A DNA stretch of 40,565 nucleotides from a virus. A program made the position numbers and the translations under genes. Positions 7,436 through 36,845 of this stretch are shown here, in pieces. Below the pieces are notes generated by a model. It ran no database searches and had not been told where the DNA came from. It saw only the letters and a program-made list of their open reading frames with translations. How positions within the stretch are numbered: the first letter of the stretch is position 1; each line of letters opens with the position of its first letter. The stretch spans positions 1 through 40,565 of the IMG/VR virus record IMGVR_UViG_3300025132_000094. One strand, 5' to 3'.

Positions 7436-7454
7436 GAAACAAAGAATAATAATC

Positions 7455-8192
7455 ATGGCATATGATATAACAAAAGTAGCGGGAATGGGCACTGAGAACC
7501 TTGATGAAGGTTCAGCAATGCCTTTCATCCGCATCCTGCAAGACTTGAGCCCACAGCTCAAGCCAAACAAAGACGAGTATGTCGAAGGCTCAAAAGCTGG
7601 AGACCTGTTCTTCGCTAAGACAAAAGAAATACTGGACAACCCAGTAGAAATGATCCCTGTGTATACTACTGCAATGTATACTGAGTGGATTCCTCGCAAC
7701 AAAGGCGGGGGCTTCGTAGGAAGTCACCCTCTATCTGTTGTTGGTAATCCCCTCTACGAAAAGGGTCGTGAGCGTCAATACGATGAATGGCTCGGAGACA
7801 ACGAACTACGCTATACTAGCTACTGGTTTGTTCTTATTAATGTAAACGGTGCATGGGAAGAAGCAATGATTCCTTTCACATCGTCTCAGTTGAAAGTTTC
7901 TCGTAAGCTTACATCTGACATTAATCGTTTCCGTTACACTGACAATCCTAGCATTGTCCCGCCTCTGTTTGCACAGAAATGGCAACTAGCGACCGTCATG
8001 GAAACTAGCAAGAATAACGACGATTATTGGAATTTCGACATCAAGAGTCCAACAGTTCTTGACTTCGAAGCCGATGAAGATCTTCTTGAGTTAGCTGCTG
8101 CTACCTCAGGCAAAGCTGCAGACACTCCTCTGCTACAGAGCCCCAAGGAAGAAAAAGCACCAGCTTTGACTACTGACGAAGATATATTCTAA
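7455..8192 (+). CDS. probable single-stranded DNA-binding protein
   Basis: A 245-residue protein. The N-terminal segment SAMPFIRILQDLSPQLKP (about 19-36), the later EWIPRNKGGGFVGSHP (73-88) and a beta-rich middle match a family that occupies the SSB position in many phages. The last residues (TDEDIF) form an acidic tail ending in a hydrophobic residue, as in SSBs that recruit replication partners through the C-terminus. No OB fold can be proven by eye. A strong terminator follows directly, consistent with high, separately tuned expression. The upstream context AATAATAATC has no Shine-Dalgarno. Confidence 0.65.
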   Translation: MAYDITKVAGMGTENLDEGSAMPFIRILQDLSPQLKPNKDEYVEGSKAGDLFFAKTKEILDNPVEMIPVYTTAMYTEWIPRNKGGGFVGSHPLSVVGNPLYEKGRERQYDEWLGDNELRYTSYWFVLINVNGAWEEAMIPFTSSQLKVSRKLTSDINRFRYTDNPSIVPPLFAQKWQLATVMETSKNNDDYWNFDIKSPTVLDFEADEDLLELAAATSGKAADTPLLQSPKEEKAPALTTDEDIF

Positions 8193-8241: not shown

Positions 8242-9786
8242 ATGAGCAACGACACTACACTAACTGAGCTAGCTACTAGCTTTATGGAATTGTTTACATG
8301 CAATCCAAATGTCCACGGAGAAACTAAACTAACAGGTAAGTTTCGTGACCGAGACGGCAAGTGTGATTCAAAATCTTTCTTAGTAAAAAGCGGAGTAACT
8401 GTAAGTTTATGGGAAGAACATATCCAAGGTAAAAAACGTATAGGTTGCACACCACTACAAGAAGACAGCTCTGTATTATGGGGAGCATTAGACGTAGATG
8501 TATATCAGAAAGAAGATACCCTTGAAAAATTAAATCAAAAGGTAGCAGAAAACGAGCTACCTTTTATAGTGTGCAGATCTAAGTCAGGCGGTGCACACGT
8601 ATACTTGTTCTTAAGCGAACCCGTAGCTGCTAAGGACATGATTGACAAGCTTAAAGCTTTTAGTGCGTTCTTTGGTCAAGGTGTATCAGAAATATACCCT
8701 AAGCAACCAAAGATTGGCAGTCGCAAAGACGACTCTAAGTATGGTAACTGGCTCAACATGCCTTATAGTGGTAACCCTACGCTTCAATATGCCTTTAACA
8801 ACAAAGGTGAGGCTCTTGACCCTAAAGAGTTTATAGACGCAGCTACAGCTAATCGTATGACCTCTGAGGCATTTCACAGCCTTAAAGTCCCTAGCAGTTC
8901 ATCTGAAACATTCCCCGACGGACCACCATGCCTAAATTACATATTTAGCGAACGAACTCAGGCAAGCGAAAGTAGAAACATTACTCTAGCTAACGTAGCT
9001 GTTTATCTTAAAAAGTCTAACCCTAGCGAATGGAAACAACTTATACACAAGTATAACAGGATGTTTTCTGAGCCTCTCAATGACCGAGAAGTAGATGCAA
9101 TCATAACTTCATACAGTAAAAAAGACTACAAATATCAATGTGCCCAAGAACCACTGTGTCGTTTCTGCGATGCAAAAGCATGTGGTATGACCAAGTATGG
9201 TATTGGAGGAGAGGACTTTATGCCAAACAATCGTTCACTTGTTCAACTAAAAAGTGACCCGCCTCTTTGGTATCTAACACTAGACGACACTGAGCTACAG
9301 CTCAGCACTGCAGAGTTTGATAATTTTAATTTGTTTAATCAAAAAGTAATGGAACGACTGCTTTACAAATTCCCGCCAATCAAGCAAGAAGATTGGATTA
9401 AACAACAAAACTTACTTCTTAAAAACTGCACACAAATAGACATTCCTTTTGAAATGACACCTGTAGGTCAGCTAATAGAACTTGTATCAGGTTTCTGTGA
9501 CTCTGCTGTAGAAGAAGCTCACCACATTAAGAACGGACCCATTAAAAGGTCAGATGGTAACTACTTATTTCGTATGTCGCATCTTAGAGACCATCTTGAA
9601 CAACAACGATTTAAAGATCTGCCTTCAAACAAAATACTTTCTGTGTTAAAGAAAGTATTAAAAGCAGAGCCTGACCGAGTCCAGCTTGACAGTGTAAATA
9701 CTAGATGCTGGCGTATTCACCAGAATATGTTAAATGTTAACAATGTTACAACGTATCCTGACTTAATAGAACACAACAACTACTAA
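8242..9786 (+). CDS. archaeo-eukaryotic-type primase (TOTE/PrimPol-like)
   Basis: A 514-residue primase. The AEP catalytic motifs are ALDVDVY (Asp84, Asp86), SKSGGAHVYLF with His119, and GNWLNMPY (168-175). The downstream region (about 230-320) resembles a primase C-terminal domain and ends in a cysteine cluster, Cys300, Cys306, Cys309 and Cys314, before KYGIGG, likely a metal site. The final 170 residues are less conserved and may bind DNA or a helicase. It would lay down primers for the family A polymerase. No DnaG- or T7 gp4-type primase is present, so this is the only candidate. Its stop overlaps the muramidase start as TAATG. Confidence 0.88.
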   Translation: MSNDTTLTELATSFMELFTCNPNVHGETKLTGKFRDRDGKCDSKSFLVKSGVTVSLWEEHIQGKKRIGCTPLQEDSSVLWGALDVDVYQKEDTLEKLNQKVAENELPFIVCRSKSGGAHVYLFLSEPVAAKDMIDKLKAFSAFFGQGVSEIYPKQPKIGSRKDDSKYGNWLNMPYSGNPTLQYAFNNKGEALDPKEFIDAATANRMTSEAFHSLKVPSSSSETFPDGPPCLNYIFSERTQASESRNITLANVAVYLKKSNPSEWKQLIHKYNRMFSEPLNDREVDAIITSYSKKDYKYQCAQEPLCRFCDAKACGMTKYGIGGEDFMPNNRSLVQLKSDPPLWYLTLDDTELQLSTAEFDNFNLFNQKVMERLLYKFPPIKQEDWIKQQNLLLKNCTQIDIPFEMTPVGQLIELVSGFCDSAVEEAHHIKNGPIKRSDGNYLFRMSHLRDHLEQQRFKDLPSNKILSVLKKVLKAEPDRVQLDSVNTRCWRIHQNMLNVNNVTTYPDLIEHNNY

Positions 9787-15924: not shown

Positions 15925-16164
15925 TTAACATTTCCATTTGCGAAGAGCCAACGCTTTGCGAGTTGGTCTTCCTTTAGAATCTTTCATTGGACCCTTGACT
16001 CCAGACATACGAGCACAAAAAGAACGGCGACGCTTAGCTGCTTTTGAGCCCCGCTTCACCTTCCCTGTAACTGGAGCTTTCAAATTAGAACCGTCCTTAC
16101 GTTTAAAGTAAGCACGTCCCTTCTTTGTTAATCCTCCAGTTTTGCTCTTATGTTCTTTTCTCAT
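15925..16164 (-). CDS. DUF6321-like small basic phage protein
   Basis: A 79-residue, strongly basic protein. The C-terminal half (KAAKRRRSFCARMSGVKGP, then GRPTRKALALRKWKC) is a pattern I recognise from a family widespread in marine phages (DUF6321). Two Cys (in SFCARM and the final residue) are typical. It is of unknown function; the charge suggests nucleic acid or head interior binding. Its start overlaps the preceding stop by one base (TAATG). Confidence 0.8.
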   Translation of the reverse strand: MRKEHKSKTGGLTKKGRAYFKRKDGSNLKAPVTGKVKRGSKAAKRRRSFCARMSGVKGPMKDSKGRPTRKALALRKWKC

Positions 16165-18842: not shown

Positions 18843-21800
18843 TTAAAATTTTTGCAAGTAGTCAAACTCAGCTTCAACAATGCTTCCTGCTGATTCTGTA
18901 AATGCCATGCCTAGCATAGCTTTAATAGGTCCACCTACAACAGGTAGACTACCTCCTGCAAAAGGAGCTACGGCTTTAGCAACTTTCTTGCCGTCCCTGC
19001 CAAGAACCCCTGTAGCAAGGTCAACTGGAGCTTTAGCTATAGGCGACACAGGCAAAGAACCTTCTAATAGCTCTAGAGGTATTTCTCCAATGCCCACAAG
19101 CCCTGATTGGCTTATAATCCTCTGCCAATCAAATGACGACATGTTCGTTGGGTTAATCGGAGCTCGACCCTTAGACAAGTCTTTCATTGCTGTGACAAAC
19201 CAAGCAGTCGCTAAGGAAGTGCCAATAAATGCAACCAAGTGCGACATTGCTCGGACGTGGTTCAGCTGAGAACCCGTGTACCCGTTAGCAAAACGGTTAA
19301 ATATAACACGGCTAAGACCTAGTATAAACGAGGTATACTGAAACCCTGTTCTCATGACTTCGCCACCAACAGTTCCTGCTTTAAAGTTACCGCGAGTAAT
19401 TGCTTGAGCACCAGCATCAGGCTCAAGAATTGCCTGTTTCATGTAGTGCAAGTAATACTCCCTAAGCTTGTTAGAAACGTTAGCATCTTCAACGGTCTGA
19501 GGCATAACACGAGATATGCCATCTGGAGCTTCTTTACTTGCAGACTTTAACAAAACCTTAATCTCTGCATCTGTAAAACCAAAGTTACGTAGACTTTCAA
19601 GGCGCACGTCATTAAACTTACCTGATGCAGCGTCTTTACCCAAGCTACGACTTGTCCAGTCTGCAAATGCTTCCTGACCAGCAGCAGTAATTCTAAGCAT
19701 ACCGTTAGCTTCAAACATAAAGGACATAGCTATATCTAGCAGACCCTTTTCGCCTGACACATCTCCAGTAATCTGCCTGACATTAGCATTATTAACTACG
19801 TCGTAAGCTGCGCCTACGTCTCTAAAATAGGCAGTCATACCAGACTTGTCTCCTTTAAACTGTCGAGACATAGCTTCTATGAACTGAGGCATAAACTCAT
19901 TTACGCCTATTTCTGCTCCTGTATACTTTAACGTAGATACGCTAAGCGGTATGTCCATAAGAGCAGAGAACCCAGAAAGAGGTAAAAACGCAAGATTACC
20001 GACCTTACGAACATTTTTAAATATAGACGCAAACGAAGCGTCTACAGGGTTGTCTAGTTCGTTAATTAGCAACTTAGTTGTGCCAAGAACCGTGTCATAC
20101 TTAAACTTGCCAACATTGTCTCCGCGTCTTAGATCAGCAGCATCTAGTGTTTTCTGAATAGTAGCCGTTGGGTCACTTCCAAAGAAACCTAAAGATGCAA
20201 TCATCTCCGACCGATAACGAATCTGGTCCATAAGAAGTTTACCTAAGTTACCTTCTCCGCTATACTTAGCTAGTAGTTTAGCTTCAGCATCAGCTTTTAG
20301 GTGCACCATACGAGACTGTTCAAAAGACCTTGCAACGTCTCCTCCTTCCAGTGTTTCCTTAAGCTCAGTTATGCGGTAATACCATTCTTTCAAATATGTT
20401 TCTCGGTCAAAAGGAATATCCTTGCCGTCTTCACGAGCTAACACACCTCCGTGGGCTTTACTTGTAGCCTCCCAATCAATGCCAGCAAGCATGTCTTTGC
20501 GGAACTGATCAAAACCTATATTTTGTATAGTGGCACTAGACCATCTTTGGCTCCAACCAGAAAAGTCGTTTCTCACACGAACATTAGAGCCAAAACGATT
20601 AAGAGCAACTAATTGTGAATCACGAACTTTTTTAATAGCGTCAACAAGCTCTTCAAATGCTTCAGAACCTTTCCATTTAGCTGGAGTTTCGCCAGTTCGC
20701 ATTGCAACCATAAGGTCGGCAGCAAAAGCGTTAACGTTTGCACGTAAGTCTTTACCGTAAATTCTAACTGCATCTGGGTTACCGCCTGTTTGCTTACGGA
20801 GCACATCAAGGTAGGGACCGTGACCAGCACCAATAAACACATCCCACAAACCGTGTTTTTCTAACACATCGTTTATAGGCTTAGCATCTACAACAATCTG
20901 TGCTTTGCTTTTAACATTAGCAGAAGCTTCTGGGTTAAACCCTGAGCGTTGTTGACCGTCTAACTGACTCTGTATCCACTCAATGCGTTGCTTAGGATTT
21001 TTAAACTGAGTCGCTCCTTCTATAAAGGTATTTAAAATTTTGCCGTTTCGAACAGCTCTTAATATCTCAGAATCAAATGTTTCGTTTAAAGACTGAAGAA
21101 CTCTAGCTCTAGCTGTAGACATGTCGTTACTTTCAGAAAGTAATATGCGTATGCTTGTTTTTAACTCTTTAGACAAACCTTTTACATTTAAATCAGCGGT
21201 TTGAAAGTAATTACTAGACCCATCAAAAATGTCATTTATTAAAGACTCTTGAAAGTCTTTTCTAGCTGCAATGTCTATTATAGTTTCTGCAATATCAGAA
21301 TAATTCTCTAATCCGTTTTGCTCAAGAACTGTGCGGACATGAGCCTTACGAGCTACAGCTCCTTTATCGTTAGCTGCGGTGTAACCTTCAGGAGTGCTTA
21401 GTATGGTTTGTAAAACAGTAGGATTACCCAGAACTGTGTTAGTCTCATTAATAAAAAACTCAGATCGGTTATCGTTTAAACTTCCAGATTCGTTAAGATT
21501 TCTATTTAACGTTTCTTCAGCTTCTAAGGCTAACTCAGATTGTTGAGGCTCTGGCTTGTCAATCTGCTCGCTGTTAAAAGTTTCGTTAAGTTGTTTTTTT
21601 ACGTCTTTAAAATTCTGAGCATTAAGCGTAGGATCTAACGACCCTGCTCCCGCAATTGGCTTAGAAACTCCTGAGCTGTTAATTGCTCCAATAATAACCC
21701 CCACATCATAAAAAGCTTGTCGATCCCTGTCAGTTAACTTTGATCTATTTAACCTTCTATACTTTATAAGATTTTGCCACACAGCAACAAACCAGTCTCT

Positions 21801-24800
21801 TAGTTCATTAAACAAAGTAGGATTTGCTGCGTGCATTCCTTTCCAGAACTCGGAATGTCTAGAAGCTTCGGTAACAAACCAAGCAACTCCTTCTTCGGTA
21901 TGACGTTCATCTGCCCAATCGTAAGCTTCCCGTTTTACTTTTGGATCATCAGTATCTTTTCCAAGGCTTCTTAAATAATCAAAATAGTACGCAAGATCGT
22001 CTCTATTATACCGCTTCCATGTATCATCATTAAACAATTTGTCTCGTAAGCGAGCATTATTCTTAACTACGTCAAGTATCTGCTGATACGCTGGTTTAAA
22101 ATCACTAGCAAGATGATGAACAAGTTCGTGCAAAGCACTAGAAACTGCTGACTCATTAGCACCAAAAATAGCTAAATTAAAAGTAATTTCTTTAGAACCT
22201 TGGTCATATTCAGCTTTAAAATCGGCTTCTGGATCAGAAACAAGCTTAATTTTACCTTTAAATCCCAATTCAGGTAATAACATTGCTGCACCTGCAAATT
22301 GATTAGGATCATCTCCTATTTTGTTAAACCTAGTTCTAACATCTGACTGAAATGTTTTTGCATACACTTCTTTAATAGCTTTTCTTCCTACAGTATTTAA
22401 ACTACGAGTTCCTATCCCTGCAAAGTTTTTTGTAAGTGTGGGGGTATCTACTGCCTCCCAAGTTTTTTCAGCAGAATACCAAGCAAACCATTGATTCTGA
22501 TCTTGGCTAAACACTGCCACAGGCTTACCCATGTCCACAGCCATTTGAACTGCCCAGCCTGTTCCTCCTTGTGGAACTCCGTCTACAATCTCTGTTATGG
22601 CAAAAACAGCATCTGAATTTACAACTTGATAATAGTTTCTGCGTAACAAGTTATTTACATAAGGCTTACTTGTTGGAAAAGTTCTCTGTAAGGTTTTATT
22701 CGCTTTTATTAAAGCAGCATCTGCCGCATTAGCTTGTTCCTGTGTAATTGGTGTATTACCTTTTGGAGTTTTGTTACCTTCTACATAATAATGACGAGAA
22801 GTTATACCATACTTCTCTCCGATACTTCCCCATATATCGTCAGCACCTCTTGCACCTCCAGAATGATTTACAAAATCTTCCCCTCTTTTAGTTAAACGTC
22901 TGCTTTTAACACCTCTGCGAGCTTCAATAAACTCTGCAAGTGCTGTTGCGTGGTTAGGCTGAACACTTTCATCGTAATACAAAAGTTTTTTGCCGTCTAG
23001 CGCACCCGAATCTATTTGAGTTAAAATCCACTGTCTTTGTGCTTGGTTGACATCTGTATGATCAGTTCCCTCTAGCCACGAACGATACGAGTCAACAGTT
23101 TCTTGCAAACTAGCTGTTTTGACAGTGCCCTTATACCCCAGATGACTAAACGGGTTGCCATAGTGCTCGTCAGTCCCATATTTTCTAAGAACATTTATAC
23201 CTTCACCAGATGCTTCAGCTGCTCTAACAGCTGCTGTTCCTTTTTTGTAAATTACATTTGTAAGTTGCCCTGATTCAGTAGGTTGAGTAGACTGAGTAAC
23301 TGGGGTTTCGTTAAGAATATCTGCAAGAGCGCGAGCCTGATTGTTCTCAGTATTGGCGAACTTGTCTGTTAAAACTTTACCCTTAGCTTTTTGTCTAAGG
23401 TCTTCTATTAAATCTGGATTTTCTTTAGCCCACTGTTTCCATATTTTTAAATAAGTTCCATAATAGTCAAAATTTGGGTCTTTAGCGGGTTGTCCTTTAC
23501 CTGATCCTTTAGCTTGCTGATAAGTCTCTTCAACAGTTCGACCATCTTTTAATCTAGCTCTAAAAGCACTAAAACGAGAGTCTCCTGCTGAAGATAATTC
23601 ATAACCATTTTTTGAGTAACGTGCTGAAGTAAACTTAGCAGTCAGCTGGCTCTTTACAGTAGATTCCTCAAGTTTAGCCTTTAATAGTTTATCTATGTCT
23701 GAACTGTTTTTGTTTCCATAATATTTCTTAAGATTTTCAGGGGTTATTTCAATAAACCTTGGTTTAAACTCAGTAGTTAGCACACGACCTGCATTTGCTT
23801 TTGGTGGGTTGAGTGGCTCCCATAATTCTTTTTGAGGATGGTCTACAATGTAACGTTTACCATTAACTTCTGTTACTGCTACTTTATGGCTACCAAGTTT
23901 TTTAGTTGCACCTGTTGTATCCAGTTGACCTATGGACACAAAAGTTGAGGGTAAACCTGACATTCTTAAGTCAAAAGAACATCGACCACTTGTTACACCA
24001 CACAAATCAATGTTTTCGTATACATCTCCTACTTTTAACTTACCTGACCACTCAAATGCTAGCTGAGGCAAAAGCTTACCATCTGCAGCAGAAGTAATTT
24101 GACCCAATCCTCTACTAGTTGCTTTAGCTTGTCCAATAGTGTCCTTATAAATATCATTAATAATCCCAGTATTTTCAGAGGATTTTAAAAATTTCAAGTA
24201 AGCATTGTAATCTTTATTTTCATCAGGAGCATTTTTCCAAGCATCTAAGTTGTCTTCATAGACTTGAGCAACTCTGTCTAATGTTTCTTCTGACACAGGG
24301 ATCTTTTTACCTTCGTAAATAAGAAATCCAGATTTAGCTGCTTTAGCAAACTCTTTAAATGTGGTGTCTCCACTAGTTTGGTGTTTTTCCGTTTTAATTC
24401 TTTCTAAAAGTGTTGAAAATCGTTCAGTAAACTTCTCAGCCAACTGCTTACTAGGAATATCTGGCTCTAAATCTAGCTCAAGTTGTCTTTGAGAATTTTC
24501 CCATTGATTTCGTAATGCAAGGTCTTCAGGGGAAGGGTCCCACCCAGACTTAACTAAAACCTGCCAATCTTCGTCGGCTAAAGTTAGATGCTGGTTGTTA
24601 TCAATAGCATTGTGTATTCTTGCAATCTGCTCTGCTATGGTTCCAGCTAATTCTTCTTGAGGAACACTGCTCGCAGCATCTGAAGCTAATACGCTCAAAG
24701 CCTGATTTGCTACACTATTTTTAAGCTCTTCAAGGGTGACCATCTGCTGAAACCTAGCAGCAGCGTCAACTTGCTCTGGGGTCAATTTATTTATGTCATC

Positions 24801-25796
24801 AACATCTTGAAGCAAGAACGCAAACTCTTCGTTTTCTTTAGCAATCTTTTTAGCGGGTTCATAAAAATCTGCCAACTTAAACGCAGCTTGAGTTGTTTCT
24901 CCGTTCTCAAGAAACCTAGAAACAGCATCTATGTCTTGGTTAAATTTAAGAACTTTATCTTGTTCTTTAAATGCTCGTCTAACTCCAAAAAATGCAAAAG
25001 GTGAGGACATGCCTACACTAAACAATTGATTTAATAGTAAATCTGTTCCAGTAACATCTCCTCCAACGTATTTCTCTCCAGCCCCCCATAAACCTGTTTC
25101 TACTGTAGAAGCAATTAAGGACTCTTTAAAAAAGTCTTTAGAAACAAGACCAGCAACCTTTAATCTAGAACCTGAAGCCAAAGCAGATTCGTATGCTGCA
25201 GCTCTTGTAAATTTTTGAGTAGCTGCTTGAGCCGAAGCTTGCTTCCATCCAGATTGTAAAGCTTTACTTGCTACGCCTATTCTTGCTGCAAATGCTGTAT
25301 AAGGGACAGCTGCAACTGGAACATCTCCAGTTAAACCTCCCGCAAATTCAGCTCCAAAGTTTGCTATCTTTTGAGCAGTTCCACCTCCACTTGTATTTTC
25401 TTGAGACACAACTCTTTTAATAAACCTGTTAAAGCGTAATTGAGTTTGTGATGGAGTCTCGGAAGGCTGATGTTCAAAAGCATCCCCATACATTCCAAAG
25501 CCTTTATCTTCAAACTGGTCCTTAGTTAAAGGCTTAAGACCAAATTCTTCGTCTAACGAAGCTGCTTTTTTTCTAGCAAGAACGTCTGGGAGTATTCCAG
25601 AAATAAGGCTCTCGTCTATTCCTCTAGAAAATGATTCTTTAAGTTGTTCAAGAGAACCAGCTTGAGCAACATGAGTTGGCAAATATCTAGTAGTCGAGCC
25701 TTGGCTACGGTCTTTTAAAGACTCCTCGACTCCAACAAACCCCTCATTGGGGTTTGAAAAAACAGCAGAAGCAAAACTGTTATATGATTTAGACAT
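18843..25796 (-). CDS. giant multidomain internal virion (polyvalent) protein, gp16 position
   Basis: A 2317-residue protein from the ATG at 25796. An in-frame ATG 33 bases upstream lies inside the previous gene, and TAATG coupling supports the later one. It occupies the T7 gp16 slot. Visible segments: a helical N-terminus; a possible thiol peptidase near 600-660 (Cys606, His637, Asp652 in YIVDHP); a DUF4326-like domain at about 860-957 (RKYGTDEHYGNPF, then LLYYDESV); a SLOG/YspA-like Rossmann domain at about 975-1110 (SGGARGAD at 979, GGTGWAVQMA near 1077); and a zincin with HELVHH (His1223, Glu1224, His1227). The last 800 residues are helical with hydrophobic stretches. This mix is typical of polyvalent proteins ejected with phage DNA. 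Confidence 0.85.
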   Translation of the reverse strand: MSKSYNSFASAVFSNPNEGFVGVEESLKDRSQGSTTRYLPTHVAQAGSLEQLKESFSRGIDESLISGILPDVLARKKAASLDEEFGLKPLTKDQFEDKGFGMYGDAFEHQPSETPSQTQLRFNRFIKRVVSQENTSGGGTAQKIANFGAEFAGGLTGDVPVAAVPYTAFAARIGVASKALQSGWKQASAQAATQKFTRAAAYESALASGSRLKVAGLVSKDFFKESLIASTVETGLWGAGEKYVGGDVTGTDLLLNQLFSVGMSSPFAFFGVRRAFKEQDKVLKFNQDIDAVSRFLENGETTQAAFKLADFYEPAKKIAKENEEFAFLLQDVDDINKLTPEQVDAAARFQQMVTLEELKNSVANQALSVLASDAASSVPQEELAGTIAEQIARIHNAIDNNQHLTLADEDWQVLVKSGWDPSPEDLALRNQWENSQRQLELDLEPDIPSKQLAEKFTERFSTLLERIKTEKHQTSGDTTFKEFAKAAKSGFLIYEGKKIPVSEETLDRVAQVYEDNLDAWKNAPDENKDYNAYLKFLKSSENTGIINDIYKDTIGQAKATSRGLGQITSAADGKLLPQLAFEWSGKLKVGDVYENIDLCGVTSGRCSFDLRMSGLPSTFVSIGQLDTTGATKKLGSHKVAVTEVNGKRYIVDHPQKELWEPLNPPKANAGRVLTTEFKPRFIEITPENLKKYYGNKNSSDIDKLLKAKLEESTVKSQLTAKFTSARYSKNGYELSSAGDSRFSAFRARLKDGRTVEETYQQAKGSGKGQPAKDPNFDYYGTYLKIWKQWAKENPDLIEDLRQKAKGKVLTDKFANTENNQARALADILNETPVTQSTQPTESGQLTNVIYKKGTAAVRAAEASGEGINVLRKYGTDEHYGNPFSHLGYKGTVKTASLQETVDSYRSWLEGTDHTDVNQAQRQWILTQIDSGALDGKKLLYYDESVQPNHATALAEFIEARRGVKSRRLTKRGEDFVNHSGGARGADDIWGSIGEKYGITSRHYYVEGNKTPKGNTPITQEQANAADAALIKANKTLQRTFPTSKPYVNNLLRRNYYQVVNSDAVFAITEIVDGVPQGGTGWAVQMAVDMGKPVAVFSQDQNQWFAWYSAEKTWEAVDTPTLTKNFAGIGTRSLNTVGRKAIKEVYAKTFQSDVRTRFNKIGDDPNQFAGAAMLLPELGFKGKIKLVSDPEADFKAEYDQGSKEITFNLAIFGANESAVSSALHELVHHLASDFKPAYQQILDVVKNNARLRDKLFNDDTWKRYNRDDLAYYFDYLRSLGKDTDDPKVKREAYDWADERHTEEGVAWFVTEASRHSEFWKGMHAANPTLFNELRDWFVAVWQNLIKYRRLNRSKLTDRDRQAFYDVGVIIGAINSSGVSKPIAGAGSLDPTLNAQNFKDVKKQLNETFNSEQIDKPEPQQSELALEAEETLNRNLNESGSLNDNRSEFFINETNTVLGNPTVLQTILSTPEGYTAANDKGAVARKAHVRTVLEQNGLENYSDIAETIIDIAARKDFQESLINDIFDGSSNYFQTADLNVKGLSKELKTSIRILLSESNDMSTARARVLQSLNETFDSEILRAVRNGKILNTFIEGATQFKNPKQRIEWIQSQLDGQQRSGFNPEASANVKSKAQIVVDAKPINDVLEKHGLWDVFIGAGHGPYLDVLRKQTGGNPDAVRIYGKDLRANVNAFAADLMVAMRTGETPAKWKGSEAFEELVDAIKKVRDSQLVALNRFGSNVRVRNDFSGWSQRWSSATIQNIGFDQFRKDMLAGIDWEATSKAHGGVLAREDGKDIPFDRETYLKEWYYRITELKETLEGGDVARSFEQSRMVHLKADAEAKLLAKYSGEGNLGKLLMDQIRYRSEMIASLGFFGSDPTATIQKTLDAADLRRGDNVGKFKYDTVLGTTKLLINELDNPVDASFASIFKNVRKVGNLAFLPLSGFSALMDIPLSVSTLKYTGAEIGVNEFMPQFIEAMSRQFKGDKSGMTAYFRDVGAAYDVVNNANVRQITGDVSGEKGLLDIAMSFMFEANGMLRITAAGQEAFADWTSRSLGKDAASGKFNDVRLESLRNFGFTDAEIKVLLKSASKEAPDGISRVMPQTVEDANVSNKLREYYLHYMKQAILEPDAGAQAITRGNFKAGTVGGEVMRTGFQYTSFILGLSRVIFNRFANGYTGSQLNHVRAMSHLVAFIGTSLATAWFVTAMKDLSKGRAPINPTNMSSFDWQRIISQSGLVGIGEIPLELLEGSLPVSPIAKAPVDLATGVLGRDGKKVAKAVAPFAGGSLPVVGGPIKAMLGMAFTESAGSIVEAEFDYLQKF

Positions 25797-28342
25797 TATA
25801 ATGTATAGGGATAAAGTGTGCGAATCCAACCAAAATACTTTTTATTAAAATCTACATTTGCTTGAATTTGTTCAGCAACTTTTCTATGAGCACCGTTTAA
25901 AGGAAGTTTTAATATCTTTGTAGCTCCTGAACCATCTGTATACTCAAAAGGTTCGTACAACGTAGATTTACCTTTTTTAAAACGAGGTATAATGTAGTCT
26001 ACTCCGTCCTCAGTAATTATATCTGAATAATCTACGTATGGTAGCCCCCCTGTTGCTGTGCTACTACTCAGCCCTCTAGCCAATTTTTTAGCTTCTTCTG
26101 TGTTATCAATAGACATCCCTGATAAAGCCTCTTGTAAAGCTGGATTACCTCCAGTAGCTTCTAACATCTCTGAAAGAAGAGTAGTTGGAACTTCTAATTC
26201 TAAAAGAGACTCAACTAAAAGATTGGACACAGCCTGACCATATTGATTTGCCATTCCTCCTGTAAAAAAATCTGCTCGTTCAAAGTGCCTTAACACATTT
26301 CTGTGAAGTTCGTTTGAAGGGTCAAATGCTGGCATTGATATTATTGTGTCGTTTTCTGTAAAAATCTTATTGCCTAAAGACTTTACAAATTTATCTTGCA
26401 TATCCAAGACAAGGTTGTAAACGTCCATTGTAGTTCCGTCTCTTTTTGCATGTATAGCTTTAGCTATTTGACCACGCTCAATTACATCGTAAAATATACG
26501 TAGCTCTTCGTTACCTTGCCGTTCAGCAGAAAGCATATGAGCGTCTAAAGGAGTTTCAAGTCCTCTAAGTCTAAGAGCTTTGTAAAACTCGTTAACCGAA
26601 GCAGACTGAAGGGATACTTCCCCGTCTTTATCAGTCATTGTAAAAGAAGCACCTCCGTATACTGAAGTTCCTATAGATGCGTATTCTAAAGCTTCCTCGG
26701 ATAAACCATCTAGTTCAAGAGCTAACATAACTCCTAATGTTTGGTCAGAGCTATTAGAGGTTTGCAAGTCTTGAGCAAAAGCATAAGAGCCATACCCATT
26801 AAGTTCTCTCATCTTTTTTATATACTCCAACTTTCCAGCTTTGTCCATGCTACTAAAAGAAGTTCCATTGGTTTCTGGTAATATACCAAAAGCCCTAGTA
26901 CCTCTAAACACTTCGGCAAAGTCAGGGTTGTTTCTATATTGATCTACTACTTGGCTCAACCTCTTCCAAGCCATAGATCTTACTCCTTCATCTTCAGTGC
27001 TGTGAAGTAATTTCCATTGCTTGGCAAAAAAAGGGTCTATTTTTGCTAACACAGAAAAATCATTGTTAGCAATGCCTTCTTCAAATTCTCGTTTTCCTTC
27101 TTCAACTCTTTTATTGTGCGACTCAAAAGTATCAGGATCTTTTTGAAGTTCAGTTCTGTCCCACACAACTCGTTGACCGTCGACAGACCTTAATATATAT
27201 GCTTCATCAGGAAGTTCTTTAAACTCTTTTCCTGCGTATGAGTCTTGTATTGCGTTTCCAATGTAGGTGTTACCGTTATCAGCAACACGCACAGCAGCTA
27301 AATCAGCTACAGCTTTATTTTGTGTTTTTATATCCGTATCTGAAGCATCTTCAGACATAGGCGCAAATACTGCACCAAAACCTTTTTGATCTGCAACCTT
27401 GCCAATAACTGCTCCAGTTACGGGGTCTGTTTGTATTTGCTCACCAAACAGTTTAGCGTCAGATGCAAGCTGTGCATCTTGCGCTTTGTTAGCTTCTTTT
27501 CGCTGTTTGCTTCCTTCAACTCCTAATGATTTAAGAGCTGTTTTAACAGCAGTAAGTGCAGTGTCTGCAGCTTTCTGAGCTCTTGCATTACCTGTGCCTG
27601 AAAGGGCAGAAAGAGAGTCTTGAATTTTTAACAACTCAGCTTCTTGTTGTTTAGTGTTTGGAATTTCACTCAAACGAGAAATAGTTGTAGTAAGCGTCTC
27701 ATTTAAATCAGAAAAAAGATCTTTATGTTGAGTATCTGGGTTGTTTAATGCAAAAATTGGGTCTTTTTCACTAGTAAGAGACACCACAATCTCATCAACT
27801 TGACTAACGTAGCTGTCAGCTGAAGGAACTCCTGTCAAAGCAGAGTCATATTTGTTAATCTCTTCTCTTCTCTGAGTCACTGCTTTCAGTTGGTTCTGAG
27901 TTTGAACTGTAACATCGTAGCTAGACTTATGCGCTTCGTAGCTAGCCTGAAGAACTGGCATATAATTAGTATAATAGTCTTCAGAGACTTCTGACTCTGG
28001 ATCTATTAAAGAATAATCAAACTCTTTATACCGTTCTGTAGCTGCTAACGCATCAGCTATATCTTCTTTTGTAGAATTAGGATCTTTTTTAAGAGCTTCT
28101 AGATTTGAAAAATCTGAACGCATCTGAGTATCCAATATTTTAAAATTGGTTGCAGCTAATTGTTTGTTAGCGTTATCATTTTTAGTATGAATCTTTTGAG
28201 CAAGCTTCCCAGCAGCATCACCAGCTTGACCGATACCACGAGCCAGCTCTTGAAGCCCTGACTTAAAGCCTATATTAGGGTCAAAGACCTCTTGGGATAA
28301 AGGTCCTGTTGTTTGAGTATTTGCTGATAAATTTATAGCCAT
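25796..28342 (-). CDS. internal virion protein, gp15 position
   Basis: An 848-residue, mostly helical protein, rich in Ala, Glu, Lys and Gln, with predicted coiled-coil stretches in the first 300 residues (TQNQLKAVTQRREEINKY and similar). It has no enzymatic motif that I can see. Its place between the gp14-like and gp16-like genes, its size (T7 gp15 is about 750 residues) and its helical nature support a role in the ejected core that spans the periplasm. The stop overlaps the giant gene's start as TAATG. Confidence 0.75.
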   Translation of the reverse strand: MAINLSANTQTTGPLSQEVFDPNIGFKSGLQELARGIGQAGDAAGKLAQKIHTKNDNANKQLAATNFKILDTQMRSDFSNLEALKKDPNSTKEDIADALAATERYKEFDYSLIDPESEVSEDYYTNYMPVLQASYEAHKSSYDVTVQTQNQLKAVTQRREEINKYDSALTGVPSADSYVSQVDEIVVSLTSEKDPIFALNNPDTQHKDLFSDLNETLTTTISRLSEIPNTKQQEAELLKIQDSLSALSGTGNARAQKAADTALTAVKTALKSLGVEGSKQRKEANKAQDAQLASDAKLFGEQIQTDPVTGAVIGKVADQKGFGAVFAPMSEDASDTDIKTQNKAVADLAAVRVADNGNTYIGNAIQDSYAGKEFKELPDEAYILRSVDGQRVVWDRTELQKDPDTFESHNKRVEEGKREFEEGIANNDFSVLAKIDPFFAKQWKLLHSTEDEGVRSMAWKRLSQVVDQYRNNPDFAEVFRGTRAFGILPETNGTSFSSMDKAGKLEYIKKMRELNGYGSYAFAQDLQTSNSSDQTLGVMLALELDGLSEEALEYASIGTSVYGGASFTMTDKDGEVSLQSASVNEFYKALRLRGLETPLDAHMLSAERQGNEELRIFYDVIERGQIAKAIHAKRDGTTMDVYNLVLDMQDKFVKSLGNKIFTENDTIISMPAFDPSNELHRNVLRHFERADFFTGGMANQYGQAVSNLLVESLLELEVPTTLLSEMLEATGGNPALQEALSGMSIDNTEEAKKLARGLSSSTATGGLPYVDYSDIITEDGVDYIIPRFKKGKSTLYEPFEYTDGSGATKILKLPLNGAHRKVAEQIQANVDFNKKYFGWIRTLYPYTL

Positions 28343-28990: not shown

Positions 28991-31900
28991 TTAAGGATTA
29001 AAGTCTGTCTTAACTACAAGAGAGACTAAGGTTAGTGGATAAGGGCGATCATGTTTGATTGTCGGAACTTTGTCCACACCAAAAAGTGATCCGCGAACAG
29101 GAAGTTCTTTACCGAACCCTGTGTAAAATTTGTCTAATGTATTTTCACCGTTAAGCATTACACCCCCATCTTCTTGTAGGAGGTAAGTAGATTCTTCTTC
29201 AAGAATAGCTTCGGGTCCGACTCTGTCGAATCCAACATACTCAAACTTATTATCAATACCGATAGAGTAGCCTACAGAGTTATAAACGTAAGGACGAACA
29301 GATATTACACGAGATTCTCCTCCGTAACTACTACCTAGTGCAGTAGCCCAAGTGTTTATGGTCATACCAATAAGACCTGTGTAACTAACTCCTATTAGGA
29401 CATGATCTGTTTTTGGAAAGTCAGACACATCTACAAGTCCTGAAGCACCAACAGTCACATCTCCTCGATCTACACCATCGGTAACTACTCTAACTGTTTG
29501 TCCTTCCACAAACCTAGCTGACACGTCTAATGAGTCAGCTATAGGCGATTCAGCTGAGCCAGAAGCTGGAAAGCGAATATGTGAGTCTAAGAACAAAGAT
29601 TTATTTTTAAGTTCTGCACTGTCTACCTCATCTCTGTAATATGGCGATAAAACTTCGTAGTCATAACGATTGCCATTCTTAACAGTAATCCAAAGCTGAT
29701 CTTCACCGTCCTGTAAATAACCTTTACGAAGAACACATATGTCTTTTACTTCTCCTGCACACTCAATCTTAGACCACGCATAAAAATCTTCTTTTTTGTG
29801 GTAAGTTAAACAGTATATATGTCCATTAGTAGTCAAGCACCAGATTCTAGGTTGTGGAGTGTGCGAGTAATCAATGCGAATAATTGGGTCGTTTAAAAAT
29901 ACAGGATATACTAGCTTAGTAATATCATTTGTATTAGTAGCCTGTGCATTAATATCGTATACAAACTCTAAAAGTCGAGCACCCGATATATCTGCAAAAA
30001 ATACTGCTGAACCTATAGTAGTTGGAGGAGTTTTAGCACCCTCTGGATCTTCTAACTCTATTCGTATGTTTTTAGGACTAATAGCAGCAGTATACTCATT
30101 AGGAGCTAACTTATAAATACCGTTGTCAGTTCCAATAGTAAGAGCCTTAGATGGAGACAACCATTTAATTGTAGAACTCACATTACTAAGTGGGTACGAA
30201 ATACCCGTAGTATCTAACACATCTCCATCATACTCTGCAGTTCTAAAATCAGTGTCATCTTCATTTTTACTCAGCCAAACATAGTTAGGAGAGTCATAGC
30301 TTCCTGCGTAAACTCGACGCTGCTCAAAAAAAGCAACGGATTGGGGGTAATTATCTGTAAACCAAGCTCCAAGTCTAAAAGACTTAAATACCCCGTTGTT
30401 TTCTATTTTACCTGTTAATTGATTTTTAGGAACAGAAGAAAGAATATCAACAGTTGCAGAGCTACTGTCGGTAAAAGCAGAAACTCTTAAGGTTACGTAG
30501 TTAGTCCCTAATCTAGCAAAAATAAATCGTCCAACATCTTTTGTATTAAACAAAGACTTGCTTGCGCTAAGAGTAGCGGTGTGAGTAGCAATCCCTTCAG
30601 GATCTGTAACTACGTCAAATACAGAAATAACACCCTCTGCTGATATTAAATTACCATTAGGTGTAGCTGATGCTGAATATCCTGTAGTGTTTTCTACAAT
30701 CTCGGGTATATTATTAGGAGCTGTGTCAAATGAATGATAACAATCAACTACATCAAACTGTTTTTGTGTTGAAAGATTTCCAATATGGGTCTGCGCATCT
30801 GCAGTAAATGTAGTAGATGAACCACCGTCGTCTGAAAATGAATGATTAAACGAAAAGTCTCTAGATCCTGCTGACGTTACAATGGCGGTTGTTTGAGTAG
30901 TAGTGCCAGCCTCATTATGTCCAATTGAGTATACCTTAAAGGAATCATCTGCATAAGATCTATAAACAGAACCTGGTCTATATCTGTCTTCATTATCAGC
31001 AGAGAGTCCTGAAATAAAATCTACAGGATAATCACTAGTGCCTAAGTGCTCTTTAATCTTATACCAGCGAGTGCGATTATCTAACGGAGTAACAATATCA
31101 AGAGACAGCCTTTCACCACCTACACGTATATAACTATTTACTTGATTAGGTGAAAATACAAGAGAAGTTGCTCTTATGTTTACGGTGTTTTCTTCAACGT
31201 CTTCATACTCAAAATAGTCGTGAGTAGAGTCAGCAGCTACTGCAACATCAGTTCTGTCAGCTACCGCCAATCGACAAGCTTCATCTTCTATGTTAACAAC
31301 TGAATCTACTGGGTCTACATACACTACAGAACTTGTTGGATCTGGTATACTAGAGTCTGTAGTGCTATTAACAACTTTGCCTACAGACCACTGGTTATTA
31401 ACATAATATTCTACATACCAATCAGTTTGTTCAGTAGTGCTATCTCCTGATGGAGTGCCATTAACAATCCAGTCAAAGTCCGAAGAAACATTTGACTCAA
31501 GCCTAATAAATTCTTGCCTATTATTAATAGAAATAACAGTGCCAGATGTGTCTGTGTTTAAAAATGGGGGAGAAGTAAATTCAACTTCATTAAGTGACCA
31601 AGAATCATCTCCCAGTTCATAAACTGCATCTGCTAACAGTGTTTGATTAGATTCATCGTCTTCAGTGGAAGATAAGCCTGTGTATGTAGATGAACCGTCA
31701 GGTTCTGTATCACTTGGAATCAAATTACTAGTTTGATACTGAACATCTACAGTTATTGTTCTGGGAGCATGTCTTCCGTGGCAGATATAAAGTATATCTG
31801 TCTCAGAGCTCCAACGAAGTTCGTCTAACTCAGAAACCTTATACGGTGCGTCAATCTCTGTAAGATGAGTCCCTTCTGAATTATATACGTCTATCTTTAA

Positions 31901-32149
31901 ATGAGAAATAACTACTCGATAGGATCTACCATCCGAGAGCGACATAGAAAGAGAAAGCGTAGCATCAGCATCTGCTGGTGATGAATAACGAAACCCATCG
32001 CGATAAAGAGCTGGACCCTGTAGCGACGGAAAAAAGTTAGTAAATGGCTTAGCCGACTTTTGTAGACGTTCAATGTCAATACGACCAAGGATATGGTCAG
32101 TTACAAGTCCTCCGCTAAAGTCAGTTGTTACATTTCTAAACTTTGCCAT
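28991..32149 (-). CDS. tail tubular protein B (nozzle), gp12-like
   Basis: A 1052-residue beta-rich protein. The start (MAKFRNVTTDFSGGLVTDHI) and the segments FPSLQGPALYRDGFRY and LDELRWSSETDILYICHGRH are typical of podoviral nozzle or stabilisation proteins. A mid-protein block with DNGIYKL and DISGARLLEFVYD supports the same family. It is longer than T7 gp12 (794 residues), with extra beta domains in the middle. It would form the distal tail tube beneath tail tubular A. Its start overlaps the A gene by 14 bases. Confidence 0.9.
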   Translation of the reverse strand: MAKFRNVTTDFSGGLVTDHILGRIDIERLQKSAKPFTNFFPSLQGPALYRDGFRYSSPADADATLSLSMSLSDGRSYRVVISHLKIDVYNSEGTHLTEIDAPYKVSELDELRWSSETDILYICHGRHAPRTITVDVQYQTSNLIPSDTEPDGSSTYTGLSSTEDDESNQTLLADAVYELGDDSWSLNEVEFTSPPFLNTDTSGTVISINNRQEFIRLESNVSSDFDWIVNGTPSGDSTTEQTDWYVEYYVNNQWSVGKVVNSTTDSSIPDPTSSVVYVDPVDSVVNIEDEACRLAVADRTDVAVAADSTHDYFEYEDVEENTVNIRATSLVFSPNQVNSYIRVGGERLSLDIVTPLDNRTRWYKIKEHLGTSDYPVDFISGLSADNEDRYRPGSVYRSYADDSFKVYSIGHNEAGTTTQTTAIVTSAGSRDFSFNHSFSDDGGSSTTFTADAQTHIGNLSTQKQFDVVDCYHSFDTAPNNIPEIVENTTGYSASATPNGNLISAEGVISVFDVVTDPEGIATHTATLSASKSLFNTKDVGRFIFARLGTNYVTLRVSAFTDSSSATVDILSSVPKNQLTGKIENNGVFKSFRLGAWFTDNYPQSVAFFEQRRVYAGSYDSPNYVWLSKNEDDTDFRTAEYDGDVLDTTGISYPLSNVSSTIKWLSPSKALTIGTDNGIYKLAPNEYTAAISPKNIRIELEDPEGAKTPPTTIGSAVFFADISGARLLEFVYDINAQATNTNDITKLVYPVFLNDPIIRIDYSHTPQPRIWCLTTNGHIYCLTYHKKEDFYAWSKIECAGEVKDICVLRKGYLQDGEDQLWITVKNGNRYDYEVLSPYYRDEVDSAELKNKSLFLDSHIRFPASGSAESPIADSLDVSARFVEGQTVRVVTDGVDRGDVTVGASGLVDVSDFPKTDHVLIGVSYTGLIGMTINTWATALGSSYGGESRVISVRPYVYNSVGYSIGIDNKFEYVGFDRVGPEAILEEESTYLLQEDGGVMLNGENTLDKFYTGFGKELPVRGSLFGVDKVPTIKHDRPYPLTLVSLVVKTDFNP

Positions 32150-32726
32150 ACATTCTTTGAGCCGTTAAAAACTTAGAGGTAGTTTCATCTATGTATTCTT
32201 GAGCAGGTCCTTGTCTTCCAGACAAAACTCTAGCTCTAGTTAAAGCTCTCAGATACTGCTTTTGTAAATCGACCGATCTTGTCTCAGATCCAGACAGCTC
32301 CAAAACAATGCTTTGTGCTATATGCAGACAAATTAGCTTGTTTAAATATGCAGGTAAGGTTGCCAAATCGGTCGGCAGATATGCGTAATAAACTGTAAGA
32401 GTTGGGTATTTGCACAGAAGCGTCCCTGCTTCTCTGTAGTAATCAGTAACGATATACCCATCCCCGTTAACTGCTTTAATAAAAATATTTAAATCTTGAG
32501 GCAAATCAAAAGTATAACTGTAATCGTCATCTTCTATTTCAGTGCCTGTTAGTTTTGCTCGCTTGCTGTTGTAGCCAAAGATATTGTCTCCGAACACTTC
32601 AAGGAAAGCTTGATCGAAGGCAGCGTTTGCAATCTCGTAGGTAGACGAGCCGTCGTCTAACCTTTCAAGATGGTAGCTCCCAACCATACGGAGAGCCGAA
32701 TTTATAATGTCTAGTTTTAAAGCCAT
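32136..32726 (-). CDS. tail tubular protein A (adaptor), gp11-like
   Basis: A 196-residue protein with the standard start of this family (LDIINSALRMVGS), AFDQAFLEVFG and SKRAKLTG segments and a helical C-terminus (KQYLRALTRARVLSGRQG). It forms the ring between portal and nozzle. It overlaps the nozzle gene by 14 bases. A terminator separates it from the capsid gene upstream. Confidence 0.9.
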   Translation of the reverse strand: MALKLDIINSALRMVGSYHLERLDDGSSTYEIANAAFDQAFLEVFGDNIFGYNSKRAKLTGTEIEDDDYSYTFDLPQDLNIFIKAVNGDGYIVTDYYREAGTLLCKYPTLTVYYAYLPTDLATLPAYLNKLICLHIAQSIVLELSGSETRSVDLQKQYLRALTRARVLSGRQGPAQEYIDETTSKFLTAQRMYGKV

Positions 32727-32776: not shown

Positions 32777-33844
32777 TTAAGCCTCTACGCAGCGAATTTC
32801 GCCAGCGACTTCACCCCACATACGAGACGCATCAGCACAAAGCTTGAAGTACAAGTATGGAATGTTCTTCTTAGAAGTGTCGCGCCAGATATCACCCTTG
32901 AGGGCAGTACCAACAGACATCTTAAGAGCCTTAGGAACAGAAACAATAACACGACGCTCGTCTGCATTAGATCCTGAAGAAAGCGGAAGACGCTCTGTAA
33001 GGATGAAACGATAGCCCATGAATGTTGTAACTTCACCTTCAGCAAGTGACTTGCGAACTGCATAGTCGGAGTTGATGATTTGCTCGATACCAAGCAGATC
33101 CTCCATTTGCTTGTGAGTTACAAAGGCATTCAAGATTGTGCCTTGATCAATTGCCTCTAAACGCTGCATGGTTGCACGAAGACCCTTGAGTTTTTCAAGA
33201 GTCAATCCTGTTGCAGATCCACCGCTAGAAGTTCCGTCGTATTTAGATCCGACAGAAACACCTTCAGTTGTAGCAGCACCAAGAGTGTAGAAACCTCCTG
33301 TAGCAATAGGATTTGACGAACCAGCATTGTTACCACCGACAGAAATGCCAGTGCCTTCTTCAGCAGTTGCAGCAGTCACGTAAGTAACATCATTAGCACC
33401 AGACTTACCTGTGTGGGCAGTTCCGAAGTAACGATCAATGATGATATCGTCAACCTTACGCTTGCCAGAAGCTAGCATAGCTTGGGTATAAGCATTCATA
33501 GGATCAGTAAGAACTCTCTTGAGATCTTTCTCATCCACATACTTGCCAAGCTCGTAGTCCTTAAGTCCAAGACGACGACGGTTGTTTTCAATTTCGCTCT
33601 GAGGGTTGACTTCGTAACGACCAGTATCTTCGGTCATTGCGGCTGCCTCTCCTATACGATCAAAGAATTGAAACTCAGAACTCTGAGATTCAGATTCGAA
33701 GTAAGGCTGAAGTTTTGATTCAGTCTGTTGATAAGCTTGCTCAAAACCCGCGCGAAACGAGTCGTAGTAAGCAGCTTCAATAAAGTTTTTTCCGTCTGTA
33801 GCGGGGGAAGCACTATAACCCTGTGAACCTACATCTAGTCCCAT
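32777..33844 (-). CDS. major capsid protein
   Basis: A 355-residue protein in the capsid position, directly after the scaffold gene. It shows a helical N-arm (FIEAAYYDSFRAGFEQAYQQ), NRRRLGLKDYELGKYVDE and DPMNAYTQAMLASGKRKVDD, which I recognise from podoviral HK97-fold capsids. A Gly/Thr/Ser-rich insertion (about 150-205) may be a surface loop. The codons favour C-ending choices more than the neighbouring genes, as expected for high expression. It is flanked by two terminators, so it is likely expressed from its own message. Confidence 0.9.
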   Translation of the reverse strand: MGLDVGSQGYSASPATDGKNFIEAAYYDSFRAGFEQAYQQTESKLQPYFESESQSSEFQFFDRIGEAAAMTEDTGRYEVNPQSEIENNRRRLGLKDYELGKYVDEKDLKRVLTDPMNAYTQAMLASGKRKVDDIIIDRYFGTAHTGKSGANDVTYVTAATAEEGTGISVGGNNAGSSNPIATGGFYTLGAATTEGVSVGSKYDGTSSGGSATGLTLEKLKGLRATMQRLEAIDQGTILNAFVTHKQMEDLLGIEQIINSDYAVRKSLAEGEVTTFMGYRFILTERLPLSSGSNADERRVIVSVPKALKMSVGTALKGDIWRDTSKKNIPYLYFKLCADASRMWGEVAGEIRCVEA

Positions 33845-34958: not shown

Positions 34959-35226
34959 GATTTCCTTGCTCTATTATGTTTATCAGTTGATGTGGATCGT
35001 CTTGACCCAGTAGAGATAGAAAGCTCATTGCCAGTCTTCGTCTACCCTCAGACTCTCTTAGTTTATTAGTGTCTGAGTGAAATACTGGTTTGGTAACATG
35101 GCACTCCTTAAGGAGCACCTTAAAGAATCGTTTTCCTTCTGGTGTGCTTAGGATCGTATTAAGATCGTCCCTCAGCTCTCCGCGTTGACGCAGACGAGCA
35201 ACAGCATCTACTGCTTTGTCTAACAT
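34951..35226 (-). CDS. Bbp19-like small virion protein
   Basis: A 91-residue protein with LNTILSTPEGKRFFKVLLKE and SEGRRRLAMSFLSLLG segments. This arrangement (a TPEGRRF helix, then a GRR helix) is seen in the Bbp19 family found between portal and scaffold in podoviruses. Its function is unproven. Its start overlaps the portal stop by one base. Confidence 0.75.
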   Translation of the reverse strand: MLDKAVDAVARLRQRGELRDDLNTILSTPEGKRFFKVLLKECHVTKPVFHSDTNKLRESEGRRRLAMSFLSLLGQDDPHQLINIIEQGNHD

Positions 35227-36845
35227 TAAATATTAAGTAATTGTCCTACGCCTTCAGGGTCTGCTTGTCTTGCTTGGGCAACATCTTTCATGGCTCCTGC
35301 TACGTCTGGCATAGCCTGAGTCATCTGCGCTGCTTGTTGTTGTTCAGCTTGAGCAGCTTCTTGTTGCTGCATGTCTTCGCTGGACTTAATAACCGTTGGG
35401 CTGATGTTTCTGTATTTAGCGTAGCTGTCTAGAAGCTCACGCTCATTAACAGATTGTAAAATCTCAGGTTTAACATTAGCCAGCGGAGTGATATCTTGCA
35501 TAAACGCACTGATGTCAGACAGTCGACTTGCAAACTGAGCTTGAGAACTTGGACTTGCGTAAGCAACTTCTAACTTAGCACCGTTTAGACTTGCAGGTAT
35601 ATCAGGTAACTGACGACCACGATTTAAGAACATAAAGGTAGCTTCCACTGCAGGAGCTATATACTCTGACTCCATGCGGTTAAGAAGTGGAGACAGCTGT
35701 TGCAGCATTTGACCACGAGTATCTTGAATCTCTAAAATACTCTGACGCTCTTGCTTTTGCTCGCGGATAATCTGGTCTACAAAGAACGCCCGTTGAATTG
35801 AGGACTTGTAAGACTCAATCATCTGCATGACAAACTGCGGTTGAGAACCGTTCATTATTGGCTGAGGCTTCTCGCTTCCAGCTTCATGGAACATAATTTG
35901 ACGTGCACCATACTTAATCGGCAGTAGGATGCTGTCTTCCTCTGCTGTCAGAGTAGGAGCGTTTAGATACTCAGATGAGATCAACACTTCCTTCACCATC
36001 TTGTTCAACACACGAATGTGAGACAAGCAGGTCATTGCAGGACTACGACCGTAAACTTCGTCCGACTGTTTCGCCCAACGAGGTATTAAGAACGTAAAGT
36101 AACTCGCACCATCTTGTCGTATAGGCTTTTTAAGATCTGGGCTCCAGTAAGTAACTTTGTAAGGTCTCTCAGCTCCAATACGACCACCCTTCTTAGCACG
36201 GCTGTCTTTGCTAGGCTCAATAGAGTATACTAGCTCATACTTTCTATTGGGGTCTTTATCTGAAAAACCTTCGACGTTTACGACTTCAGGAAGCAAACCA
36301 GCCATCTGACGTGCAGTCTTAAAGCACCTATAATAAACTGTATTAACTTCGCCATGCTCATCTACATCAAAGAACACGTCCGCGAGAGGTCTCGCGCGAA
36401 AATTTACAACGCCTTTTACATAGGACATCTGCACAGGAGAAGTTCCATATGCTCCAATGTCTAAGAAACATTCATGACTTGCTCCGTAGAACTGAGACTG
36501 AGGCAAAGCTAGTTCATGAAAAATACGATCAGTTACTGCGTTAAGATAAGTATGCTGTTCTTTATTTAATTCAGAGTTCTCAGTATCTTGAACTCGCAGA
36601 TACATCCACTTCTCTGCTTTGGGAATCAAGTTGGACGACAGCCCATTAGCAAACATCTGATTACACCAAACGGCTGTATCGTCGTGTATGTCTTTAGAAC
36701 CGTCGTTTTTAAAGTTAGCTCCGTGATCAAATTCAGGTGAGTTCGGACGCACGTATCGTTGAGTATCCTTAAGCATACCATCAAGGCTGCTTCTAAGGAG
36801 TTTCAACTCTTCATAGCGCGTACGTAACCTGACTATTTCGTCCAT
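35226..36845 (-). CDS. portal (head-tail connector) protein
   Basis: A 539-residue portal of the T7 type. Family segments include SPEFDHGANFKNDGSKDIHD near the N-terminus, VWCNQMFANGLSSNLIP, YGRSPAMTCLSHIRVLNKM and a Gln/Ala-rich C-terminus (QQEAAQAEQQQAAQMTQA). It would form the 12-subunit vertex for packaging and tail attachment. It lies between the polyproline gene and the Bbp19-like gene. Confidence 0.93.
   Translation of the reverse strand: MDEIVRLRTRYEELKLLRSSLDGMLKDTQRYVRPNSPEFDHGANFKNDGSKDIHDDTAVWCNQMFANGLSSNLIPKAEKWMYLRVQDTENSELNKEQHTYLNAVTDRIFHELALPQSQFYGASHECFLDIGAYGTSPVQMSYVKGVVNFRARPLADVFFDVDEHGEVNTVYYRCFKTARQMAGLLPEVVNVEGFSDKDPNRKYELVYSIEPSKDSRAKKGGRIGAERPYKVTYWSPDLKKPIRQDGASYFTFLIPRWAKQSDEVYGRSPAMTCLSHIRVLNKMVKEVLISSEYLNAPTLTAEEDSILLPIKYGARQIMFHEAGSEKPQPIMNGSQPQFVMQMIESYKSSIQRAFFVDQIIREQKQERQSILEIQDTRGQMLQQLSPLLNRMESEYIAPAVEATFMFLNRGRQLPDIPASLNGAKLEVAYASPSSQAQFASRLSDISAFMQDITPLANVKPEILQSVNERELLDSYAKYRNISPTVIKSSEDMQQQEAAQAEQQQAAQMTQAMPDVAGAMKDVAQARQADPEGVGQLLNI

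Follow-up and report, generated by a model that had tools for sequence, protein, structure and literature searches.

Large proteins whose single chain unites a number of unrelated enzyme-like domains have been described in phages and conjugative elements as polyvalent proteins (Iyer et al. 2017, PMC5512222). Their genes are found among virion genes, the proteins are predicted to be injected with the DNA, and the zincin is their most common member; the word SLOG is absent from the text of that study. For viral SLOG and DUF4326 domains, both predicted to process nucleotides, ADP-ribose derivatives have been suggested as the targets (PMC9503650), and SIR2-SLOG ThsA effectors are activated by cyclic ADP-ribose isomers (PMC11204291). 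Giant proteins associated with RNA polymerase were found by mass spectrometry in crAss001 virions (PMC10172136). Ejection proteins of the T7 gp16 type ranged from 609 to 1337 residues in a reviewed set, in which the transglycosylase domain was phage-specific and able to swap to gp15 (PMC8954989).

Here, a gene for a protein of 2317 residues was investigated in a viral record of 40,565 bases, the whole of which is referred to as the window. Like the polyvalent proteins, this protein holds several dissimilar modules in one chain (PHROG 9995, DUF4326-like and SLOG domains and an HExxH region), and its gene sits among phage late or virion genes. It differs from them in its carrier, an ejection protein of the gp16 type that has a defined slot for exchange. 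The polyvalent idea is already known; new here are the exchange slot in such an ejection protein and a cargo in common with virion RNA polymerases of unrelated phages.

The gene and its genomic neighbourhood

The gene occupies positions 18843..25796, as the original prediction had it, and is read from the minus strand from an ATG at 25796 to a stop at 18843. The start overlaps the 3′-end of the preceding 848-residue ORF (25796-28342). The predicted gp16 position is evident from the late gene order in the window, which runs terminase, connector (35226-36845), major head protein (32777-33844), two tail proteins (32136-32726 and 28991-32149), a 211-residue ORF, the 848-residue ORF and finally the 2317-residue ORF. 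The gene thus follows tail tubular proteins and two other candidates for internal proteins, the order known for T7 gp16. A homologue in Pseudomonas phage Flu_PA14_4 is encoded shortly downstream of genes annotated as internal virion proteins, and PHROG 684, annotated 'virion structural protein', is matched at 3e-33 by a stretch of roughly 500 residues towards the C-terminus (1709-2226). Gene position and hydrophobic stretches are shared with the T7 gp16-like ejection proteins, whereas the length of 2317 residues exceeds the range of the reviewed set. Pfam found no transglycosylase domain in the N-terminal part, a further departure from T7 gp16.

Searched as a whole, the protein had no match above cut-off in Pfam and NCBIfam and no convincing match in a PDB sequence search (best E 0.13). 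At the DNA level, the search turned up no near-identical phage. A search of the window for a T7-type RNA polymerase gave no match, the positive control being likewise silent.

Other genes of the window were also recognised. A ThiF/E1-like protein (2237-2935, plus strand; PF00899, 2.6e-17) is encoded in the early region of this small podovirus. A TOTE-type AEP primase (PF22548) with PriCT_1 lies at 8242-9786 on the plus strand and is adjoined by Pam3 gp33- and gp34-like proteins at 6848-8192. On the minus strand, a 79-residue ORF (15925-16164) matches several long PHROGs at their C-terminal end and is perhaps a shared C-terminal tip domain.

Domains of the 2317-residue protein

All residues and motifs named in the original prediction (C606, H637, D652, SGGARGAD at 979, GGTGWAV at 1077 and HELVHH at 1223) were found exactly as stated. 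The four predicted domains fared differently, and the SLOG domain (22341..22874, minus strand; residues 975-1152) is the best supported. For most of its length, structure prediction gave block confidences of approximately 81-97, and the model has a Rossmann-type fold matching the solved structure 3imk (Z 12.3, 3.4 Å, 136 residues; next entry Z 5.8), which we take to be a SLOG protein of the cpYpsA type. 3imk is a putative molybdenum carrier protein. ThsA matched the model weakly (Z 4.0), and a PDB sequence search with the SLOG profile gave no convincing match. Among Pfam models, cpYpsA (PF12694) was the commonest match, touching 16 of 32 SLOG family members, all below the cut-off (best E 0.0083). 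Since the window protein reached 12.7 bits against a curated cut-off of 26.2, its domain is filed as a relative with the SLOG fold and not as a member of PF12694. A joint alignment of all domains placed the SLOG rows wrongly and was left out of the analysis.

The prediction of a DUF4326-like domain (22914..23261, minus strand; residues 846-961) was supported through relatives of the window domain. The window domain itself scored below the PF14216 cut-off (E 0.069; 14.2 bits against 25) and is called DUF4326-like instead of a PF14216 member because the curated score was missed. The corresponding domain of a close relative, L011, is 68% identical and matches PF14216 at 0.0014 (19.6 bits), and 14 of the 29 sequences in alignment A10 match it, the best at 8.8e-7. 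Upstream of it in the gene, a domain that the original prediction did not name matches PHROG 9995 (phrog_9995, 8.7e-27; 23304..23612, minus strand; residues 729-831). Both domains were modelled with block confidences above 90 over most of their lengths. When the model of residues 556-970 was compared with solved structures, Foldseek returned nothing at or below 0.001 and VIA-align nothing at Z 5; PDB searches with the DUF4326 and PHROG 9995 profiles gave no convincing match. Two identities considered for the PHROG 9995 domain were given up: a second copy of DUF4326 (0.6% probability in a profile comparison) and a NADAR-like domain (suggested by a single member out of 15, at E 0.08, with PF22397 silent in the window).

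A zincin-type metallopeptidase domain of type A (21642..22340, minus strand; residues 1153-1385) is likely. The predicted HELVHH motif (22113..22130, minus strand; residues 1223-1228) is present, has no second HExxH beside it in the window's open frames of at least 120 codons, and is kept in L006, with HEFIH at the same motif in L008; the region was, however, modelled poorly (blocks of 45-82). A PDB search with the zincin profile gave no convincing match, and the type B zincins of relatives touch the MPTase-PolyVal and M78 models below cut-off.

The proposed Cys606/His637/Asp652 peptidase, which would call for a papain-like fold, found no support. The three residues exist, but they lie in an orphan stretch at the start of the slot (23652..24449, minus strand; residues 450-715), where residues 450-569 are common to L013 only, a search for relatives of residues 545-715 found none, and model confidence stays largely at 32-72, briefly reaching 79. 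With no relatives and low model confidence, the proposed triad is read as a residue pattern only.

Backbone and slot in close relatives

Eight IMG/VR relatives (L006-L013) were compared with the window protein as far as their contigs reach. They share the N- and the C-terminal backbone, and everything in between is swapped. The N-terminal backbone (24447..25796, minus strand; residues 1-450) is present, with 42-95% identity, in each of the seven relatives that have contigs extending to it (L006-L009 and L011-L013). The C-terminal backbone (18846..21641, minus strand; residues 1386-2317, approximately 930 in all) is 60-90% identical across seven relatives; it contains the PHROG 684 match and, at residues 1935-1953 and 2186-2204, the two stretches where the protein is most hydrophobic.

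The slot of L007, L009 and L012 holds an HExGH zincin only, which in L007 and L009 touches the M78/IrrE models below cut-off. In L011 the HExGH zincin is accompanied by DUF4326, and the truncated L010 likewise has DUF4326 after the end of an HExGH zincin. L008 combines an HExGH zincin with one of type A, and L006 carries DUF4326 and SLOG together with a type A zincin. In L013, which is truncated where its contig ends, the match to the window protein runs up to residue 569. An HExxH peptidase is accordingly found in every relative with a whole slot, and DUF4326 and SLOG vary; from these slot contents, the peptidase is the constant part and the rest is variable. The comparison of these sequences shows the middle of the protein to be a slot, evidently one for effector domains.

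The slot also differs from its flanks at silent sites. Between the window and L006, the nearest relative, synonymous codons were changed at 35 of 255 positions (14%) in DUF4326 and SLOG, at 34 of 182 (19%) in the zincin and at 258 of 808 (32%) in the C-terminal backbone; the differences from the backbone have p values of approximately 3e-9 (DUF4326 and SLOG) and 3e-4 (zincin). Silent divergence in the slot is hence about half that of the C-terminal backbone (0.14 vs 0.32). The N-terminal backbones of the two proteins are only approximately 62% identical. Because the slot appears younger than its flanks at silent sites, recombination probably exchanged the cassette, or a part of it, once the backbones had separated. 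The comparison concerns one pair of sequences and therefore supports recombination without proving it, and the lower silent divergence could partly reflect a different constraint on silent sites.

The modules in other giant proteins and their possible role

The SLOG, DUF4326 and PHROG 9995 domains were each searched alone and irrespective of context. SLOG was detected at 45 loci, 39 of them in ORFs of more than 1000 residues under the standard code and two more with TAG read as sense (41 of 45), DUF4326 at 34 viral loci, all in ORFs of at least 883 residues, and PHROG 9995 in ORFs of at least 1011 residues at 13 of 14 viral loci, counts that are not independent, several loci being near-copies and the queries themselves having been taken from giant proteins. 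Standalone SLOG was found at only four of the 45 loci and was of two kinds. Such separate genes, of approximately 190 residues, occur in L045, L057 and Caulobacter phage Cr30, the last (180 codons) among more distant SLOG relatives from jumbo and other phages; the context of an ejected protein is therefore not needed for SLOG function. Bacterial genome contigs contained SLOG in both giant and short ORFs, and a scan of a plasmid collection for the domain did not find it.

Many of the giants that bear these modules carry a DxDxD motif such as AGSDFDGDKLF, putatively the motif with which two-barrel RNA polymerases, such as those of crassvirus virions, bind metal. Since Pfam names no RNA polymerase in the giants with this type of motif, we infer that identity from the motif. 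The Klebsiella phage Pylas protein AYP69319.1 is, like the window protein, a giant of the ejected kind with SLOG, here approximately 55% identical to that of the window; the Pylas protein has the domains of an N4-type virion RNA polymerase (Pfam), whereas no RNA polymerase could be recognised in the window protein, and the two do not match outside SLOG. Crassvirus cr113_1 encodes a giant chain of 4328 residues among its virion genes (YP_010112838.1), a putative homologue of the crAss001 giants, again with an HExxH motif (HEAWH) and a SLOG approximately 55% identical to that of the window. It differs in the C-terminal location of SLOG, in the DFDID RNA-polymerase motif (GSDFDIDK) and in TAG being apparently a sense codon. 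The scan of twelve SLOG giants also revealed, among other domains, NADAR and an ART of the polyvalent type.

Some individual loci deserve mention. The SLOG of L033, L042, L127, L129 and L132 (near 10300) lies in ORFs of 3542-4351 residues only if TAG is read as sense, as in recoded crassviruses. In L090 (701-10783), a PHROG 9995 domain shares a single ORF of at least 3361 residues with SLOG and a DVDID motif. NADAR was above cut-off in a 2863-residue frame of L138, which belongs to the same record as L039 and whose frame equals the SLOG-bearing ORF of L039 in length.

The variable slot, the cassette exchange and the presence of the modules in giants of unrelated phages strongly support the original prediction of a polyvalent effector delivered by the virion. 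With moderate confidence, we regard it as a polyvalent ejection protein in which a gp16-like backbone bears an effector slot acting on defence signals derived from NAD or ADP-ribose. The backbone would be packed in the head and ejected, as its position and kin suggest, and would probably help to form a DNA channel across the inner membrane. The HExxH metallopeptidase of the slot would probably cut the polypeptide and so free the cassette, or else cut a host protein. The SLOG and DUF4326-like domains would enter the cytoplasm and there, judging from their families, probably bind or degrade NAD- or ADP-ribose-derived signals of defences such as Thoeris. This blocking of signals would precede any phage gene expression, and the cassettes would be traded between phages by recombination, to which the silent sites of the one pair point. 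It is plausible that the window protein disarms NAD-derived defence signals; the SLOG could also be a sensor of DNA or nucleotides with no role in defence.

Other roles of the slot domains have to be weighed against this. It is unlikely that they serve ejection, with SLOG and DUF4326 giving structure or ligand sensing to the channel or its cytoplasmic hub and a zincin that does no more than trim virion proteins during assembly or ejection: their embedding in an ejection-type protein fits such a role, as do the zincin motif in every relative with a whole slot and the HExxH domain in the C-terminal part of the N4 virion RNA polymerase seen in a new structure (PMC12633501), but L007, L009 and L012 do without SLOG and DUF4326, and the standalone SLOG genes fit an independent activity. 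A cassette that re-sets host metabolism, for instance NAD or nucleotide pools, and has no part in defence appears improbable; the nucleotide processing predicted for SLOG and DUF4326 agrees with it and fusion to virion RNA polymerases would place the domains at the start of takeover, yet the way the domains come and go in close relatives resembles a response to varying host immunity rather than a core need. Ranked last, and likewise improbable, is a DprA-like SLOG working on the incoming DNA, either as a shield or as an aid to early recombination or replication. PHROG does label the SLOG match DprA-like (phrog_768, 2e-12) and 3 of 32 family members touch the Pfam DprA model; the lead of 3imk among the fold matches and of cpYpsA among the Pfam matches speaks against it, and NADAR and ART, co-occurring in other giants, point to NAD chemistry.

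That the ejection protein has these modules in common with virion RNA polymerases of unrelated phages suggests a shared injected tool-kit, probably blunting host defences. More tentatively, SLOG, DUF4326 and PHROG 9995 may form a virion-delivered counter-signalling kit against NAD-derived alarm signals, grafted onto three unrelated ejected carriers. These would be the gp16-like ejection protein, the N4-type RNA polymerase and the crassvirus-type RNA polymerase, and many phages might then, in an equally tentative reading, enter the cell pre-armed. The idea can be put to the test in cultured phages such as Pylas, and the exchange slot is a simple place to look for new effectors. If the idea is true, counter-defence against nucleotide alarm signals works at time zero by way of the ejection machinery, and could be searched for in any phage in the middle of its ejection protein.
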